From contig CANIKO010000010.1 in the NCBI GenBank assembly GCA_947468275.1, forward strand, positions 77,114 through 141,113: a stretch of DNA of 64,000 nt, in the 5' to 3' direction. Each line of letters starts with the position of its first letter. Positions within the stretch are counted from its first letter, which is position 1. This DNA is from Bacteroidota bacterium (GTDB lineage: Bacteria; Bacteroidota; Bacteroidia; NS11-12g; UBA9320). Positions 2,543 through 56,242 of this stretch are shown piece by piece. Below the pieces are notes generated by a model that was not told the origin of the DNA, made no database searches, and was given only the letters and a program-made list of their open reading frames with translations. The position numbers were made by a program, and so were the translations under genes.

Positions 2543-3382
2543 ATGCGAAATACCGTATTAAAATCACTTATATTTTTAGCTGCAGTTTTACCCGCTAATT
2601 TATCATTTTCCCAAAAATGGGAAGTGGGGGGAATGCTAGGGGCTTCTAATTATAATGGGGATTTAGCCCGTGAACTGGTATTAAAAGAAAGCCACTTGGC
2701 CGGGGGGGCATTTTTTCGTTATAACTTGGGTAAATATTTTTCATTAAAGCCAACTATCCAGGTCGGTACTATTAGCGCCAGTGATAAAAATTTTAAAGAA
2801 AATAAATATCGAAATTTAAGCTTTAAATCCAATATTACTGAGTTTGCCACCATGATGGAATATAATTTTAAACCTTTTGGTGCACAAGTAAGGACGGAGA
2901 GTTTTACGCCCTACATTGAATTTGGGGTGGCATTATTTCATTTTAATCCTAAAGCTAAATACAATGGTGATTGGTTTGAATTACACGCTTTACATACGGA
3001 GGGGCAAACAACAAAACAAATGTATAAATTAAACCAAGTTTCAATTCCTTTTGGAATGGGGCTAAAGTGGTCTGTTAATAATAATCTTACTGTAGGTTTT
3101 GAATTTGTATACCGCAAAACTTTCACTGATTATTTGGATGATGTTAGTAAAACCTACCCTGATTTGCCAGAACATGCAAAAAAATATGGTTCATTAAGTG
3201 CGTCACTTTCCGACCGATCAGCAGAAGTGACAAGTGATGGTAAACCACTGAGCACAGTTGGAGATATGCGAGGTGATACCGGCCTTAAAGACTGGTATGT
3301 GTTTTCAATGTTTTCCTTTTCTTATCGATTTACACCAATAATTTGCTGGCCTAATAAGCCTTCTACTGTATGGGATTATTAG
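2543..3382 (+). CDS. Outer-membrane beta-barrel protein, DUF6089/PorG-like (copy 2)
   Basis: Signal peptide, GGMLGASNYNGDLARE; shares the pattern FTDYLDDVSKTYP / GDTGLKDWYVFSMFSFSYR with copy 1 (FTDHLDDVSGKYP / GNPKNKDWYSIFGLSLSYR). Confidence 0.75.
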   Translation: MRNTVLKSLIFLAAVLPANLSFSQKWEVGGMLGASNYNGDLARELVLKESHLAGGAFFRYNLGKYFSLKPTIQVGTISASDKNFKENKYRNLSFKSNITEFATMMEYNFKPFGAQVRTESFTPYIEFGVALFHFNPKAKYNGDWFELHALHTEGQTTKQMYKLNQVSIPFGMGLKWSVNNNLTVGFEFVYRKTFTDYLDDVSKTYPDLPEHAKKYGSLSASLSDRSAEVTSDGKPLSTVGDMRGDTGLKDWYVFSMFSFSYRFTPIICWPNKPSTVWDY

Positions 3383-4113: not shown

Positions 4114-6667
4114 TAAAACAATCACAAGCAAATTGAAGAGACTACTAATTATTGTTATAGCTGCTTTTTTCTTTTCTTTTAAAACATTAGCACAGGTAAA
4201 AGATACGACCATTGTCAATCTGAATTACCTATCTCCCAACAAATACACTATTGATAAAATAACTGTAACAGGAACCCTGTTTATGGACAGAAATATCCTG
4301 GTGCTAATATCAGGACTATCGCGTGAGCAAGTTATAAGCGTGCCAGGTGATGAATTAAGAAAGGCCGTGGAAGTATTATGGAAACAAGGATTGTTTTCGG
4401 ATGTTAAGATTTTTTGTACCGGAGTTAATGAAAATAAAATTAATTTGGATATTCAATTGGTCGAAAGACCTCGATTATCTAAGTACGGAATTAAAGGCTT
4501 GTCCAAAGGTGAAACTAAAAATATTAAGGAAGAGTTAGATCTTGAGTCAGGCCAAATAATAACTGAAAATCTTACCACCAAATCACTCAATAAAATTAAA
4601 GCCTTTTTTTATAAAAAAGGATACTTTAACACTGCGGTAACTATTAAAACAGAACCTGATCCTGACCCCAAAAAGAACGGACAACTTATAATGAGAATCC
4701 TTGTTAGCAAAGGACAAAGGGTAAAAGTATATAACATGATCATTGAAGGTAATAATAAAGTAAGCGACCGCAAACTGTTAGCATCAATGAAGAAGCCTAA
4801 ACGGAAAAAAAACAAGCTCAATATGTTTGCCTCGTCCAAGTTTATCGAAACTGCTTATGAAGAGGAAAAGCCTAAAATACTTGAAAAATATGCAACTATG
4901 GGTTATCGTGATGCCCAAATAGAAAAGGATTCAATTTATAAAATTAGCCCTAACCTCTTAAATATTATGATTAAGGTTAAAGAGGGTAAGCAGTATTATT
5001 TTAGAAATATTGAATTTATAGGCAATACAAAATATCCAAATGCTGAATTAGCTAAAATATTGGGAATTAAAAAAGGCGAAATATTTAATCAATCCAAATT
5101 GGAAAGCAGATTATTTATGAATCCTTCAGGGTATGATATTTCTAGCTTGTATATGGATGATGGTTACTTGTTTTTTAATGTAAGTCCGGTAGAAGTAAAC
5201 GTAGAAAATGATTCTATCGATCTTGAAATAAGAATATACGAAGGTAAACAGGCTACTATTAATAAAGTAATTGTAACTGGGAATGATAAAACGAGTGACC
5301 ATGTAATTTTACGTCAACTTAGAACCGTTCCAGGCGATAAATTTAGCAGAGCAAATATTCAGCGGTCAATTCGCGAATTATCGCAACTTAATTATTTCAA
5401 TCCCGAAAAACTTGGCGTTAATCCTATTCCTAATCCACAAAATGGAACGGTGGATATTGAATATAAGGTGGTAGAAAAACCTTCTGACCAAATAGAAGCA
5501 TCAGGTGGATGGGGCGGACAAGGTGGATTTATAGGTACTATAGGTCTAAGTCTTAATAATTTTTCGACAAAACGCATGTTTACTAAAGGCGCTTGGGATC
5601 CTTTACCTGCTGGTGATGGGCAGCGTGTTTCCTTAAGAGTTCAAAGTAATGGGCCAGGTTATAGGACCTATAATTTTTCATTCAGTGAGCCATGGTTGGG
5701 AGGCAAAAAACCTAATTCGTTTTCCTTTAGCGTGTATCATTCAGTTCAGACCAATATTCAAATTTATGGGTTGGTAAATAACAAGAATAATCCTAACTAT
5801 CAATACCTCAAAACAACAGGGGTAACACTTTCGTTGGGCAAATATTTAAAGTGGCCAGATGATTATTTTACAATAAGTAATAGTTTAAATTTTCAGCATT
5901 ATAACTTTAAAGATGCCGCATTACCCGCTTCTTATTTTGGTTTATCATCTGCTTTAGGCTTTAGTAAAGGGCATTCTAATAACATTAATTTTCAGAATGT
6001 CATTTCTAGAAGTTCCGTTGATCAGCCAATTTTTCCAACGGATGGCTCCACTTTTACCCTCACGACACAGGTAACACCACCATATTCATTATTCAGGCCC
6101 AACACCGATTATAAAACCATGTCACCCGAAGCTAAATATAAACTGTTAGAGTATTATAAATGGAAAGTAGAGGCTATTTGGTTTCATAAAATTGTTGGAA
6201 AATTAGTTTTGGCATCTTCCTTTAAATTTGGATTCTTAAACTATTACAATAAAGATGTTGGTTATTCGCCTTTTGAGAGATTTAAGTTAGGAGGTACTGG
6301 ATTGGTCGGCTGGAATCTTTATGGTTCAGAGGTTATTTCACAGCGCGGATATGATCAATATACAACGGGAAGTGGCGCAGTAAACTTTAATAAATACACT
6401 TTAGAATTACGTTATCCTATAAGTACAAATCCTTCAGCTACAGTTTACGTTCACTCCTTTTTGGAAGGAGGAAATGCATTTTATTCAATGAAGGATTATA
6501 ATCCTTTTAAATTATATAGAACAGCTGGTGTTGGAGTTCGTTTCTTTTTACCCATGTTTGGATTATTGGGATTGGATTGTGGATGGAGATTTGATGATGC
6601 ACCGCATAATCAATCGGCATCTCAAAAGAAATTTCTGTTTCAGTTTTTCTTAGGTCCTCAATTCTAA
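4043..6667 (+). CDS. bamA: Outer membrane protein assembly factor BamA (POTRA repeats plus barrel); start uncertain (4007/4043/4070/4094)
   Basis: Signal peptide KLKRLLIIVIAAFFFSFKTLAQ, serial POTRA-like segments, barrel with FERFKLGGTGLVGWNLYGSEVISQRGYD and GLDCGWRFDDAP...FLFQFFLGPQF C-terminus. Confidence 0.93.
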   Translation: MGPSLIIKIVNEDLEKQVNKFQLNKTITSKLKRLLIIVIAAFFFSFKTLAQVKDTTIVNLNYLSPNKYTIDKITVTGTLFMDRNILVLISGLSREQVISVPGDELRKAVEVLWKQGLFSDVKIFCTGVNENKINLDIQLVERPRLSKYGIKGLSKGETKNIKEELDLESGQIITENLTTKSLNKIKAFFYKKGYFNTAVTIKTEPDPDPKKNGQLIMRILVSKGQRVKVYNMIIEGNNKVSDRKLLASMKKPKRKKNKLNMFASSKFIETAYEEEKPKILEKYATMGYRDAQIEKDSIYKISPNLLNIMIKVKEGKQYYFRNIEFIGNTKYPNAELAKILGIKKGEIFNQSKLESRLFMNPSGYDISSLYMDDGYLFFNVSPVEVNVENDSIDLEIRIYEGKQATINKVIVTGNDKTSDHVILRQLRTVPGDKFSRANIQRSIRELSQLNYFNPEKLGVNPIPNPQNGTVDIEYKVVEKPSDQIEASGGWGGQGGFIGTIGLSLNNFSTKRMFTKGAWDPLPAGDGQRVSLRVQSNGPGYRTYNFSFSEPWLGGKKPNSFSFSVYHSVQTNIQIYGLVNNKNNPNYQYLKTTGVTLSLGKYLKWPDDYFTISNSLNFQHYNFKDAALPASYFGLSSALGFSKGHSNNINFQNVISRSSVDQPIFPTDGSTFTLTTQVTPPYSLFRPNTDYKTMSPEAKYKLLEYYKWKVEAIWFHKIVGKLVLASSFKFGFLNYYNKDVGYSPFERFKLGGTGLVGWNLYGSEVISQRGYDQYTTGSGAVNFNKYTLELRYPISTNPSATVYVHSFLEGGNAFYSMKDYNPFKLYRTAGVGVRFFLPMFGLLGLDCGWRFDDAPHNQSASQKKFLFQFFLGPQF

Positions 6668-6681
6668 TTTTAACTTAATAA

Positions 6682-6718
6682 AAAAGGGAATAATAATTTA
6701 GAATTATTATTCCCTTTT
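6682..6718. terminator. Bidirectional terminator hairpin between the convergent bamA and acyl-CoA dehydrogenase genes
   Basis: AAAAGGGAATAATAATT-TAG-AATTATTATTCCCTTTT: perfect 17-bp arms, A/T tracts on both sides. Confidence 0.85.
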
Positions 6719-6736
6719 AATCTGTAATGAGATGTT

Positions 6737-7876
6737 TTATTTTAAAATATCTCTTGCTATAACAACTCTTTGTACTTCTGACGTGCCTTCATATATCTGA
6801 GTAATTTTGGCATCGCGCATCAAGCGTTCTACGTGGTATTCTTTCACATAACCATAACCTCCGTGGATTTGTACCGCCTCAACAGTAGTTTTCATAGCTA
6901 CTTCACTAGCAAATAATTTGGCCATGCTGCTAGCACGGTCATAATTAAGATGTTGGTCTTTCATCCATGCGGCCTTATGACAAAGTAAACGGGCAGCTTC
7001 TATTTCAGTAGCCATATCCGCCAATTTAAATTGAATCGCTTGGTGGTTTTTTATTTCAGTTCCAAAAGCTTTGCGTTCTTTTGAATAATTAAGTGCTAAT
7101 TCATAAGCACCTGATGCAATACCTAATGCTTGTGCTGCAATACCAATACGACCTCCACTCAAAGTTTTCATGGCAAACTTAAATCCAAAACCTTCTTCAC
7201 CAATACGATTAGCCTTAGGTACTTTTACATCCTGAAACATAAGTGAGTGAGTATCGCTGCCGCGGATTCCCAATTTATCTTCTTTTTTTCCTACAATAAA
7301 ACCAGGCATGTCTTTAGTAATAATAAGGGCATTAATACCTTTATGTTTCAGTTCAGGATGAGTTTGTGCCATCACAATAAATGTATCGGCACTGCTACCA
7401 TTAGTTATCCAGTTTTTTGTGCCGTTCAATAAATAATAATCGCCCATATCTTCAGCAGTGGTTCTCTGTGAGGTAGCATCCGAACCTGCCTCCGGTTCTG
7501 AAAGGCAAAATCCTCCGTGAATAATTCCTTGTGCTAAAGGAACTAAATATTTTTGTTTTTGTTCTTCGTTACCAAAGGTTTCAAGCCCCCAACATACTAA
7601 AGAATTATTAACCGACATAACTACAGAGGCCGAAGCATCTACTTTAGAAATTTCTTCCATAGCCAAGACATAAGAAATCGTATCCATTCCTCCGCCGCCA
7701 TATTCAGGCGAAACCATCATCCCTAAAAATCCCAATTCGCCCAATTTACGAATCTGTGACATTGGAAATTTTTGTTCATTGTCTCGCTCAATAACTCCTG
7801 GTAATAATTCGGTTTGTGCAAACTCACGTGCAGCTTGCTGAATCATTATGTGTTCTTCGGTTAATTCAAATTGCAT
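6737..7876 (-). CDS. Acyl-CoA dehydrogenase
   Basis: MQFELTEEHIMIQQAAREFAQ..., GGFCLSEPEAGSDA, YAKERKAFG-like (YSKERKAFGTEI), QIHGGYGYVKEYHVERLMRDAKITQIYEGTSEVQR. The upstream ORF extension is not convincing. Confidence 0.96.
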   Translation of the reverse strand: MQFELTEEHIMIQQAAREFAQTELLPGVIERDNEQKFPMSQIRKLGELGFLGMMVSPEYGGGGMDTISYVLAMEEISKVDASASVVMSVNNSLVCWGLETFGNEEQKQKYLVPLAQGIIHGGFCLSEPEAGSDATSQRTTAEDMGDYYLLNGTKNWITNGSSADTFIVMAQTHPELKHKGINALIITKDMPGFIVGKKEDKLGIRGSDTHSLMFQDVKVPKANRIGEEGFGFKFAMKTLSGGRIGIAAQALGIASGAYELALNYSKERKAFGTEIKNHQAIQFKLADMATEIEAARLLCHKAAWMKDQHLNYDRASSMAKLFASEVAMKTTVEAVQIHGGYGYVKEYHVERLMRDAKITQIYEGTSEVQRVVIARDILK

Positions 7877-8172
7877 TTTTATAATATTTGTATTGGTGCA
7901 AAAATAATTAATTGAACAAGTATTTGTAAGCATTCCGTAATTTAAAGATAATCTATTAAAAGGCATTGGCCTTATTGTGTTTTTTTAAAATATTCTTTTA
8001 GGCTAATTTTATTGGATAATTGACAATAAAAGCAATGATATTGAGTAATTAATAGCCTTTAAGCAACTATTTTGGGAGTTGTATCGTCTGAATATAAAAG
8101 TTAATTTAACTATGATTAAAATCATGAGGGAATAATCAGGTTAAAATCAAAGGAATACAGATAATAATTATA

Positions 8173-11100
8173 TTGCGCAATATTTCTAATATGAATCTTT
8201 TTTCTGCGAGCATAAAACTACTGATTTTTGTTTTACTGTTCCTGATTGCGTTCAATCCAACAAAGGCCCAAATATATCAAGGCGCAGAGGCAAATAGCAA
8301 ACTAAAAGGTGCAGAAATAGTAAGATTAAACGGAATAAAAGGAAAAATTAAATATGCATTATTAAGCGATAGATTATTTATAACTAAAGAACAAACCATT
8401 CCTTATCTAATAAAGGTATTTGGCCTTAAAAGTGCTTATAAGTTTAAACTAATAAAAAATGATCATGATATAATAGGCTTTGAACATTTACGATATCAGA
8501 TAACTTATAATGACATACCTGTTCTTGGGGGTATTATAATAGCCCATTTCAAAAATCAAAAATTGCATTCGTTCAATGGTGAAATTTTTGAAGTACAAAC
8601 TGAATCATCCCAAAATTTTCTTTCCGAAAATGAATGTTTGTCAAAAACCTTAGAGTCGGTTGGTGCTAAAATTTATAATTGGCAATTGCCGGATGAAGAA
8701 GTATTAATTAAAGTCATTAAAGATAATAAAAATGCTACTTGGTATCCCAAGGGTGAATTAATATATTGTCCTAAAAATTTGGATTTTGAACAAGGCCCAT
8801 TTGCCTTAACTTATAAATTTACCATATATGCTAATCTGCCGCTTTCAGCTGAAAACATTTATATTAGTCCAATAAACGGTGAAATAATAGCTCGTGAAAA
8901 TTTATTGCATAACGTAGACGTGCCCGGTGTGGCAGTAACAAAATATAGCGGTACACGAAACATCAAAACAGACAGCATATCTAAATATAAATTTAGGCTT
9001 ATTGAAAACTCAAAAGGTGGGGGCATATATACTTTAAATTTAAAAAAAGGCACTAATTATGCGGCGGCAGTTGATTTTTTAGACTCTAATAATTACTGGA
9101 ATAATATTAATACCGATAAAGACGAAATAGCAACGGATGCGCATTGGGGGGCAGAAGTTACCTACGACTACTATTATAATGTTCATAATAGAAAAAGTTA
9201 TGATAACAAAAATGCTAAAATATATAGTTATGTGCATTATTCAACCAATTACGACAATGCTTTTTGGGATGGCATAAGAATGACTTATGGCGATGGAAAT
9301 AGTTTTAAGCCTCTCACGGCGTTGGATGTCTGTGGTCATGAAATAACACACGCAGTTACATCTAATACGGCTAATTTGACTTATAGCTACGAATCCGGGG
9401 CATTAAATGAATCGTTCAGTGATATTTTTGGAAATACAATTGAACGTTTTGGAAGGCCGACTCAATATAATTGGAAAATTGGAGAAGACATTACAACAGG
9501 TGCTACCGGATTGCGCGATATGAAAGATCCGAAATCAAAAGGCAATCCCAGATGTTATAAAAGCACCTATTGGTATACCGGAACAGGAGACAATGGTGGA
9601 GTTCATAACAATAGCGGAGTTCAAAATTGGTGGTATTATTTGATAACCGAAGGAGGAGCAGGCACAAATGATGTAGCGAATACTTTTAAAGTAGATAGCC
9701 TTGGAATAAAGAAGGCTGAACTAATCACTTATAGAAATTTGTCAGTTTATCTAACGACCTCTTCCAATTATGCGGATGCTCGATTTTATTCAATCAGAGC
9801 AGCAGTAGATTTATATGGAAATTGCGGCAAAGAAGTTATTGCCGTAACTAATGCTTGGTATGCTTGCAATGTTGGTCCTAAATATGATAGCGGTTATGTA
9901 AAAGCAAATTTTACGGCCGATACGGTAATATGTAATACTTCAAAAAAAGTAAATTTCAATAATTTAAGCACAAATGCTGTCAGTGTAAAATGGTATTTTG
10001 GAGATGGATCAACCTCAACAACATTGAGTCCGGGTTATAATTATTCATCTTATGGTATTTATAATGTTAAGCTTATCGCTAAAAGTTGCTTTCTCAACAA
10101 AAGTGATAGCATTACCAAGATGGCTTTTGTGAAAGTGGATTCAACATTTGATATATGTAATTCAGTTTTAATGCCCCAAAGTGGAACGGATAGCACTAGT
10201 AAATGCCAAACCTTTGTTTATGACGATGGCGGCGAGGGGCCATATAAAACGCTGAATAAAACGATTCTAAAAATAAATGTTCCAGGAGCTGATTCCATTG
10301 TGTTGAAATTTTTAGATTTTGACTACGAAAATAAATTCGACAGTCTTTATATTTATAAGGGAGCTTACCCCGGAGGGACTTTACTAGGTGGTTTTACAGG
10401 TTCTACTTTACCTTTTGCAGGCAAAAAGTTTAAAGTAGTAGGCAGTTTAATTACGCTTCGCCACTTTGCAGATCCTTTGGAAACAGGTAGAGGTTTTAAA
10501 ATGTTTTATACTGCTTTCAAGCAACCTGTAGATTTAAAAGTGTTTAAAGATACTACCATCTGTATTGGCAATACAATGTTATTACATGCTGAAGGAACAG
10601 GTGGGTATTTTAAGGATTATGCATTTTTATGGAAAACAATTTCCAGCAATGATTCAATTAAAGTGTCGCCAATTGTGCCAACTGTTTATAAAGCATATCT
10701 CACAGATGTTTGCACCAAATCAGTGGATTCGGCACAAATTTTTGTTAATGTTAGAAAACCATTATCAGTTTCTTTAAATAAAGACACCACCATCTGTGTA
10801 GGTCAATCTGTAATATTTAATACCTCGTCTTCAGGAGGGCAAAATACAACCTATCAATATTTATGGAATAATGGATTGGGAAATAATAGTAGTCATATAG
10901 TATCGCCATCAGTTACCACTCAATATCGTGTTATATTGTCCGATGGATGCACATTGTTAAACGATACCGCTTTTATTAATGTAACGGTTAGAAACCCGTT
11001 AAAGGTGAGTTTGAAAACGAACGATACTTTAATTTGTTATAACAGATCGGTTAGTTTAAATGCTACCGGTTCGGGCGGGCAAAGTTCTAATTATGTATAT

Positions 11101-53029: not shown

Positions 53030-53533
53030 ATGTATATTTCTCTAAGACCATGGGCCATAGAAGATGCAGCTACTTTAACTGCTTATTTTAATAATATAAA
53101 TATCTGGAATAATCTTCGGGATTATGTGCCGCATCCATACACTTTAGAGGATTCTGAAGAATTCATAACTTCCCAGTTAGCCTTATTTCCAACTCAAAAT
53201 TTTGCAATTATTAACGAAGGTGAAATTGTTGGTGGAATAGGAATGGTGCTATTGGATGATATTTATAAAATGAATGTGGAATTGGGCTATTGGGTGGCCG
53301 AATCCTTTTGGCACACAGGTATAGCAACTATTGCCGTGGGCCTGATGACCAATTATATTTTTGAAACATTTGCTGTCAATCGTATTGTGGCTGAAGTATT
53401 TGAACCCAACAAGGGCAGTATGCGGGTGTTAGAAAAAAATGGCTTTTTTTTAGAAAGTGTTCGACGAAAAGGCATATTAAAAAACGAATTGCTCATGGAT
53501 GATTTTGTATGGGTGAAACAGAAAATATATTAA
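53030..53533 (+). CDS. GNAT-family N-acetyltransferase, RimJ/RimL-like
   Basis: LRPWAIEDAATLTAYFNNINIWNNLRDYVPHPYTLEDSEEFI, ELGYWVAESFWHTGIATIAVGLMTNYIF, VNRIVAEVFEPNKGSMRVLEKNGFF. Confidence 0.94.
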   Translation: MYISLRPWAIEDAATLTAYFNNINIWNNLRDYVPHPYTLEDSEEFITSQLALFPTQNFAIINEGEIVGGIGMVLLDDIYKMNVELGYWVAESFWHTGIATIAVGLMTNYIFETFAVNRIVAEVFEPNKGSMRVLEKNGFFLESVRRKGILKNELLMDDFVWVKQKIY

Positions 53534-53564: not shown

Positions 53565-53804
53565 ATGATAAAAAAGAATATTGCCACCAATGAATTTGGA
53601 TTTGTATTTAATCCTGCCACGGGCGATTCCTATAGCAGCAATCCCATTGCCGCTGAAATTATTCAGATGATGAAAGAAAACCTTTCTGTAAATGAAATCA
53701 AAAAAAACCTTCTCGATAAATACGAGATGGACAAAATGACCATTGAAAAAGATGTGGATGAATTTGTAAGTTCATTAAAAGAAAACAACCTTTTAAATAA
53801 TTAA
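53565..53804 (+). CDS. PqqD-family small protein (RRE-like fold predicted)
   Basis: 79 aa, FVFNPATGDSYSSNPIAAEIIQMMKENLSVNEIKKNLLDKYEMDKMTIEKDVDEFVSSLKENNLL: PqqD-type beta-strand/helix layout with the DV.EFV..L...LL tail. Confidence 0.82.
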   Translation: MIKKNIATNEFGFVFNPATGDSYSSNPIAAEIIQMMKENLSVNEIKKNLLDKYEMDKMTIEKDVDEFVSSLKENNLLNN

Positions 53805-54895: not shown

Positions 54896-56242
54896 ATGGC
54901 AAAATTAAAATATGAACGCCCAATCATCAAAAAGATGAATGCGGGTATGATGAATAAGTTTGGCGCACAGAGCGAAAATACACCTGTAACGCATATTGAC
55001 GGTGTTTCAGTAAAATCACTGATTGAAAAATACGGCAGCCCTGTTTTTGTGTTAAGCGAACAAAAGATGCGACAAAATTATAAGGCTGCGGTTAGGGCTT
55101 TTAATACCCGGTACCCAAAAGTTCAATTTGCATGGAGTTATAAAACTCATTATAACAATGCTGTTTGTAATGTGTTTCATCAGGAAGGAAGCTGGGCTGA
55201 GGTTGTAAGTGGTTTTGAATACCGAAAAGCTTTGGGAAACGGTGTTCCCGGAAGCAATATTATTTTTAACGGCCCCGATAAACATGGAGATGAAATTCGA
55301 TTGGCCATTGAAAACGATTCCTTAATTCATATTGACCACTTTGAAGAACTGTATTTATTGATTGACATTTGTTCACAGTTAAATAAAAAAGCCCGTGTTG
55401 CCATCCGTGTAAACATGGATACTGGAATTTACCCGATGTGGGATCGTTTCGGATTTAATTATGAAAATGGTCAGGCATGGCAAGCCCTTAATAAAATTGT
55501 AGAATCTGGTAAATTGCTGTTGGTTGGTTTACACTCACATATAGGAACATATATGCTAAGCACAGCGGCCTACGGAGTAGCCGCTGCCAAGTTGTGTGAT
55601 TTGGCAGTAAATTGTAAAAGTCAGTTGCATACTCAAATTAAATATTTGGATTTAGGGGGAGGGTTTCCAAGTGCCAACACGTTGAAAGGAGCTATTGGCT
55701 TAGTTCAAACCCCATCGGTGGATGAGTTTGCTGAAGTCATTACCTCCACCATTTTAAATTATGGGTTTAAAACAGAAGAATTGCCTCTGCTTATTTTGGA
55801 AAGTGGCCGGGTTTTAATTGATGACGCCGGATATTTATTAGGCTCTGTTTTAGCTAATAAAAAACTGAGCGATGGACGCAAAGCTACCATTATGGATTTT
55901 GGAGTAAACATTATGTTTACTTCATTTTGGTACGATCATAAAATCAGCCCGGCACAGGAAGCCAGTCAGTTTAATGAAGAAACTGTAATGTACGGCCCAT
56001 TGTGTATGAATATTGATATCGTTCGGGAAGCCGTAACTTTGCCATTGCTTAACAGAGGTGACCATGTGGTAGTGCATAAAGTTGGAGCATATAATATGAC
56101 CCAGTGGATGCAGTTTATTGCTATGCGACCCAACATCGTTTTAATAGATACCAATAGCCAAACTCATATCGTCAGAAAAGCTGAAACCCTTGAATATTTG
56201 GAACAACTGGAAGTGATTCCTGAACATTTACAAAAAAAATAA
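54896..56242 (+). CDS. PLP-dependent decarboxylase-fold enzyme (DAP/Orn/Arg decarboxylase family)
   Basis: SPVFVLSEQKMRQNYKAAVRAF, FAWSYKTHYN (PLP Lys), GLHSHIGTYM, YLDLGGGFPS, LILESGRVLIDDAG, GPLCMNIDIVREAVTLPLLNRGDHVVVHKVGAYNMTQWMQF. Confidence 0.92.
   Translation: MAKLKYERPIIKKMNAGMMNKFGAQSENTPVTHIDGVSVKSLIEKYGSPVFVLSEQKMRQNYKAAVRAFNTRYPKVQFAWSYKTHYNNAVCNVFHQEGSWAEVVSGFEYRKALGNGVPGSNIIFNGPDKHGDEIRLAIENDSLIHIDHFEELYLLIDICSQLNKKARVAIRVNMDTGIYPMWDRFGFNYENGQAWQALNKIVESGKLLLVGLHSHIGTYMLSTAAYGVAAAKLCDLAVNCKSQLHTQIKYLDLGGGFPSANTLKGAIGLVQTPSVDEFAEVITSTILNYGFKTEELPLLILESGRVLIDDAGYLLGSVLANKKLSDGRKATIMDFGVNIMFTSFWYDHKISPAQEASQFNEETVMYGPLCMNIDIVREAVTLPLLNRGDHVVVHKVGAYNMTQWMQFIAMRPNIVLIDTNSQTHIVRKAETLEYLEQLEVIPEHLQKK

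Follow-up and report, generated by a model that had tools for sequence, protein, structure and literature searches.

A leader-like tail on a Bacteroidota decarboxylase as a putative recognition peptide for a PqqD-type protein

PqqD-type RREs are usually thought to handle short precursor peptides. In the window, by which we mean the whole stretch of 64,000 nucleotides analysed here, a PqqD-type protein is encoded two genes upstream of a PLP-dependent decarboxylase which itself begins with a segment reminiscent of a RiPP leader, as was pointed out in a preliminary description of this DNA. This raises the question of whether the enzyme, or its tail, is what PqqD recognises, or whether the resemblance is fortuitous and the partner of PqqD is to be sought elsewhere.

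The tail and its conservation

Positions 54896-54970 of the forward strand encode MAKLKYERPIIKKMNAGMMNKFGAQ, residues 1-25 of the decarboxylase, with a net charge of about +5 which bears out the earlier remark that the tail is basic. Its motif Y6-E-R-P9-I-I11 fits the consensus [Y/W]xxPx[L/V/I/F/A] of leaders that are bound by discrete RREs (PMC13381572) and is followed by a second conserved block and a variable linker (Table 1). The start of the gene is tightly bounded because the in-frame open stretch amounts to only 455 codons. A comparison of the window with 12 near orthologues gives a pS of 0.84 and a pN of 0.06 for the tail, a ratio of 0.07 that is indicative of strong purifying selection, and shows no conservation in the 30 bases upstream of the gene. 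It follows that the tail is translated and that selection acts on it as protein.

Table 1. Coordinates of the cassette genes and of the elements within them (positions in the window)
Feature	Positions	Strand	Evidence or remark
GNAT acetyltransferase, optional cassette member	53030..53533	+	36/81 loci
PqqD-type discrete RRE, 79 aa	53565..53804	+	PF05402, 50.2 bits vs curated cut-off 23.4
PqqD Asn26, equivalent of LppB N33 / PbaB1 G42	53640..53642	+	Asn in 122/125
PqqD Asp63, equivalent of LppB D70 / PbaB1 Q79	53751..53753	+	covaries with tail residue 6
ATP-grasp ligase, PRK12767/CarB-like group, 359 aa	53814..54893	+	fold near 2pn1, RizA
PLP-dependent alanine-racemase-fold decarboxylase, 448 aa	54896..56242	+	Pfam PF02784/PF00278
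RRE-recognition-like tail, decarboxylase residues 1-23	54896..54964	+	conservation, pN/pS 0.07, predicted flexibility
YxxPx[I/L] motif, Y6-E-R-P9-I-I11	54911..54928	+	fits [Y/W]xxPx[L/V/I/F/A]; Y6 97%, rest F; P9 100%
Second conserved block, G17-M-M-N-K21-F-G23	54944..54964	+	G17 and K21 100/100; G23 99/100
Variable linker, residues 24-33, tail/catalytic-domain junction	54965..54994	+	entropy 2.05 bit
Urea-transporter domain fused to M23 peptidase domain	56309..58441	+	PF03253 + PF01551
Conserved secreted cassette protein, 389 aa	58420..59589	+	family in 59/81 loci
Conserved TPR protein, 207 aa, last in cassette	59577..60200	+	conserved cassette family

Relatives sought in one genome per species numbered 595; the best 80 of these were analysed further, and the tail stands at the start of all but one of the 80. 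The single near orthologue without it belongs to a Runella MAG (L074) and is a copy with a broken 5' part; this locus (L074:7753-9203) holds an interrupted ATP-grasp gene together with the decarboxylase broken at its 5' end. An alignment of 100 tails shows no variation at P9, G17 and K21; at residue 6 there are 97 Tyr and three Phe, E7 is present in 98, and residue 11 is Ile or Leu in 99. Diverged hits carry the tail in 19 of the 20 regions examined, the exception being a distant match outside the cassette, and diverged relatives from other families keep it in the form [K/R]x[Y/F]ExPx[I/L] ... G ... K[F/Y/I]G.

The mean entropy of the tail (0.99 bit) equals that of the catalytic body (1.01 bit), which is what would also be expected if the tail served the decarboxylase itself as a dimer arm, as a lid over the active site or as a contact with the membrane or with a partner unrelated to PqqD, its likeness to YxxP leaders being coincidental. 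AlphaFold2 was applied to natural in-frame read-through chains (L035), with stops taken as Gly, for which good alignments were obtained, and the chains modelled were PqqD-ATP-grasp-decarboxylase and PqqD-ATP-grasp-tail. In both the tail is disordered, with a pLDDT below 50, and it is not docked on PqqD, in a single-chain run in which the PqqD part was represented by only 11 sequences. The lack of docking gives no support to binding by PqqD and would be in keeping with a role within the enzyme; the disorder in both models is against such a role and supports a flexible, separable tail, in agreement with the earlier impression that the tail is separable from the catalytic domain. Other decarboxylases of the same fold likewise speak against such a role, since the two further ones in the same genome, one lysA-like (L185) and one arginine-decarboxylase-like (L186), lack the tail and can be aligned only from residue 29-33 onwards. 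A search of plasmids recovered ordinary decarboxylases only, all devoid of the tail.

The distribution of the tail argues in the same direction. The tailed decarboxylase, PqqD (at a threshold of E<1e-10) and the ATP-grasp ligase occur in an identical set of 36 out of 399 Bacteroidota genomes, and a 37th decarboxylase match (G431, 159 bits) is only distantly related and has neither tail nor cassette. The genes are dispersed in two related genomes (L078 and L085), where PqqD and the ATP-grasp ligase are encoded elsewhere and the tail is unchanged. The motif highlighted in the preliminary description is thus found in orthologues of the same context as well as in those whose genes are unlinked. 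The dispersed lineage comprises L078 and L085 with L113, L115, L167 and L168, and retains decarboxylase, ATP-grasp and PqqD. One genome (G230) harbours two copies of the cassette (L148 and L149), with the tail on both decarboxylases.

The cassette and the search for a free precursor

PqqD, ATP-grasp and decarboxylase follow one another in this order with next to no intergenic space, which places PqqD two genes upstream of the decarboxylase as originally described. The structural model of the ATP-grasp protein resembles CarB-like proteins and L-amino-acid ligases such as RizA. The urea-transporter/M23 protein accompanies the cassette across Bacteroidota. Of 81 loci, 76 have its gene beside that of the decarboxylase and several of the others are contig ends; we found no publication on this combination of domains. 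The 389-residue secreted protein, of which the window copy has no Pfam match, is possibly an outer-membrane barrel, and its position beside the TPR protein at the end of the cassette (58420-60200) suggests an envelope-spanning output. In about 24 loci (for example L073, L098, L100 and L107) genes for a LytTR response regulator and a histidine kinase lie directly upstream, and this pair is a likely regulator of the cassette. Individual loci show further variation: the cassette genes of L105 are interspersed with those for two proteins that carry type IX secretion tails (2578-3375 and 6067-8328), one of which has a CotH-kinase domain, and in L110 an open frame of 727 residues (5705-7888) passes from a response regulator over into the ATP-grasp protein, which may be a fusion or an assembly error.

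The conserved families of the cassette include neither an asparagine-synthetase-like cyclase nor a B2 protease, as would be found in a lasso peptide cluster, and the ATP-grasp protein falls into the PRK12767/CarB-like group and is matched by none of the graspetide models. A role in anti-phage defence was considered and set aside, PADLOC giving no match. In the open-licence literature we found no description of the cassette or of a leader-tagged decarboxylase.

A PqqD-type protein could in principle serve a free precursor encoded elsewhere, in which case the tail of the enzyme would be a regulator or decoy that imitates the leader. When 25 cassette genomes are searched with a profile built from the tail, the N-terminus of the decarboxylase is matched and nothing else, with E values from 1e-6 to 1e-17 and a next best value of 0.05; the genome with the duplicated cassette gives two matches, both of them decarboxylase N-termini. 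The profile is tuned to the decarboxylase tail and would miss a generic YxxP precursor whose sequence differs from it, which is the point in favour of a free precursor. No conserved small YxxP ORF is present in 26 cassette regions, and the operon leaves almost no intergenic room for one. Clusters of small YxxP ORFs that were considered as precursors turned out to be either antisense shadows of cassette genes or fragments internal to them. A precursor encoded elsewhere is on these grounds highly improbable, no separate precursor gene having been found by these searches. The enzyme itself appears to be the tagged partner in many Bacteroidota, as PqqD retains the residues required to hold the tag. 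The tail resembles a RiPP precursor in carrying an RRE recognition motif, YxxPx[I/L], near its N-terminus. It differs from one in two respects: it is the N-terminus of a 448-residue enzyme and not a short separate gene product, and it is not divided into a leader and a variable core, as the G17-G23 block is conserved as well and the variable stretch is the linker of ten residues.

PqqD as the putative reader of the tail

The PqqD-type protein scores well above the cut-off for its family (Table 1) and among solved structures is closest to lasso RREs in complex with leaders, namely TbiB1 (5v1u, E=6e-10) and TfuB1 (6jx3, E=7e-7). The AlphaFold2 model consists of three short N-terminal beta stretches and of helices at residues 29-37, 42-52 and 57-73. 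Structures have been published for LppB with LppA and for PbaB1 with PbaA. In LppB, N33 fixes the kink at the Pro of YxxP and D70 forms a hydrogen bond with its Tyr, and in PbaB1 the double replacement G42N/Q79D greatly strengthens the binding of a leader with Tyr (PMC13381572). When PbaB1 is aligned with PqqD, G42 corresponds to Asn26 and Q79 to Asp63. Chain and native numbering are presumed to lie 18 residues apart, the sole offset under which residue 42 is Gly and residue 79 is Gln. PqqD thus keeps both residues that hold the YxxP motif, Asp63 being present wherever residue 6 of the tail is Tyr. The positions equivalent to the cleft of PbaB1 and LppB (Y23, N26, I28, I32, L49, Y53, D63, F67, L71 and L76) are mostly conserved and retain suitable side chains. 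The likeness between YERPII...G and the YxxPx(L/I) motif that was originally proposed is matched on both sides, by conservation of Y6-E-R-P9-x-I11 in the tail and by retention of Asn26 and Asp63 in PqqD.

The contact between Asp63 and Tyr6 was picked from the structure paper (PMC13381572) ahead of the comparison of partner sequences. Among 124 linked or same-genome pairs, Tyr6 is accompanied by Asp63 in 114 and Phe6 by Tyr or His at position 63 in ten, with no exceptions, and this is the sole column of 82 in PqqD which fully separates the Phe6 group from the Tyr6 group. In a tree of the decarboxylase bodies all Phe6 members fall into one clade, so the pattern represents one evolutionary co-replacement and not ten. 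As a sequence pattern it is suggestive of a contact between the tail and PqqD, and not proof of one. The co-replacement at the predicted contact, like the perfect co-occurrence with a PqqD that retains both residues gripping YxxP, counts against a tail that serves only its own enzyme, an explanation which we consider improbable.

In all likelihood the tail is an RRE-type recognition peptide that is built into an enzyme. As judged from the sequences, PqqD is most likely docked onto the decarboxylase by means of the tail, and the ATP-grasp ligase is probably docked onto it too. PqqD would bind Y6-E-R-P9-x-I11 as an added beta strand, with Tyr6 in a first pocket and bonded to Asp63, Pro9 fixed by Asn26 and Ile11 filling a second pocket. 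By way of the flexible linker it would tether the decarboxylase to the ATP-grasp ligase, which may join the complex, and the block formed by G17...K21-F-G23 would be presented either to the ATP-grasp ligase or to the active site of the decarboxylase itself; from its conservation this block is a candidate contact with a second partner or a candidate site of modification. We put the probability that PqqD binds the tail motif and tethers the decarboxylase to the ATP-grasp ligase, the pair then ligating and decarboxylating, at roughly 0.6. The earlier proposal that the enzyme or its tail is a substrate or scaffold recognised by PqqD gains support, at the level of sequence, from the orthologues, the tail-less paralogues, the retention of Asn26 and Asp63 and the co-replacement of Tyr6 and Asp63.

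Likely chemistry and relation to known systems

The catalytic domain has the hallmarks of an alanine-racemase-fold PLP decarboxylase, with the PLP lysine K83, the stacking histidine H213, the glycine loop G254-256 and C370 in the active site. K83, H213, GGG254-256, E302, R305, C370 and D374 are invariant in 101 sequences and the catalytic residues are intact. By sequence and fold the nearest solved structure is 7kh2, the N-citrylornithine decarboxylase FigC/FslC, which agrees with the window decarboxylase in its fold and catalytic residues and has a C-M-x-x-D loop that is similar. The two differ in that identity is about 29%, the partner ligase of the window enzyme is an ATP-grasp protein, no comparable tail exists within the aligned region of FigC, and the window enzyme scores 214.7 bits against a cut-off of 500 with the N-citrylornithine decarboxylase model NF041039 of NCBIfam. 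Members of the FigC/FslC clade (SbnH, AcsE, MccE, BtrK) decarboxylate amino acids that are tethered to larger groups; in BtrK this is glutamate on a carrier protein and in MccE a peptide-nucleotide (PMC7857480). The kinship to this clade and the likeness of the ATP-grasp protein to amino-acid ligases make ligation followed by decarboxylation on a tethered substrate plausible. The decarboxylase/ATP-grasp pair would probably carry out amide ligation and then decarboxylation, a sequence for which FigA/FigC and BtrJ/BtrK provide precedents on scaffolds of another kind.

The same relatives lend themselves to an alternative in which the tail is leader and core in one: PqqD would deliver it, the ATP-grasp ligase would acylate Lys21 or link residues within G17-G23, and the decarboxylase would then act in cis on the tethered amino acid, in the manner of BtrK on the carrier protein BtrI. 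This is in keeping with the invariance of Lys21 and its flanking glycines beyond the portion that RREs normally hold, with the position of the decarboxylase nearest to FigC in a clade that includes BtrK, acting on a glutamyl-carrier protein, and MccE (PMC7857480), and with the fold of the ATP-grasp protein. It sits less well with the absence of a variable core and of a leader protease from the cassette, and an invariant Lys may merely bind a partner, for which reasons we regard it as unlikely. Docking alone is somewhat more likely than modification of the tail because the tail has no variable core and the cassette no leader protease, and invariant Lys21 keeps modification alive. A more speculative and rather doubtful extension is a self-scaffolding enzyme in which PqqD binds the tail, the ATP-grasp ligase acylates Lys21 and the same protein decarboxylates the tethered amino acid, acting as its own carrier for the assembly of a small molecule.

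A widespread Bacteroidota cassette appears to apply to an enzyme the same code that is otherwise associated with precursor peptides. If this is true, genome mining based on the presence of a free precursor will misread such loci, the pairing of RRE and peptide is a natural device for docking enzymes, and there is a testable point of entry to a ligase-decarboxylase-transporter cassette that is as yet uncharacterised.

The discrete RREs of lasso and LPP systems (TbiB1 5v1u/5v1v, TfuB1 6jx3, PbaB1 9x90 and LppB 9x8z) share with the window system the PqqD fold, the conserved YxxP cleft with the Asn and Asp by which the motif is held, and the YxxPx[I/L] peptide. In those systems the peptide heads a short precursor, whereas in the window it is the N-terminus of a metabolic enzyme of 448 residues, and a lasso cyclase and a leader protease are absent from the cassette. 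The butirosin protein BtrJ is an ATP-grasp enzyme. Like the window, the butirosin system BtrJ/BtrK/BtrI combines an ATP-grasp ligase with a decarboxylase of the same fold (BtrK/BtrI: PMC7857480); it relies on a phosphopantetheine carrier protein, which the window system lacks and in place of which it has PqqD and a peptide tail. Borosins of the OphMA type unite an enzyme and a RiPP-like segment in one chain (PMC7878506), as does the window protein, with the difference that the borosin core is C-terminal and is modified by its own methyltransferase, whereas the segment of the window decarboxylase is N-terminal and leader-like.
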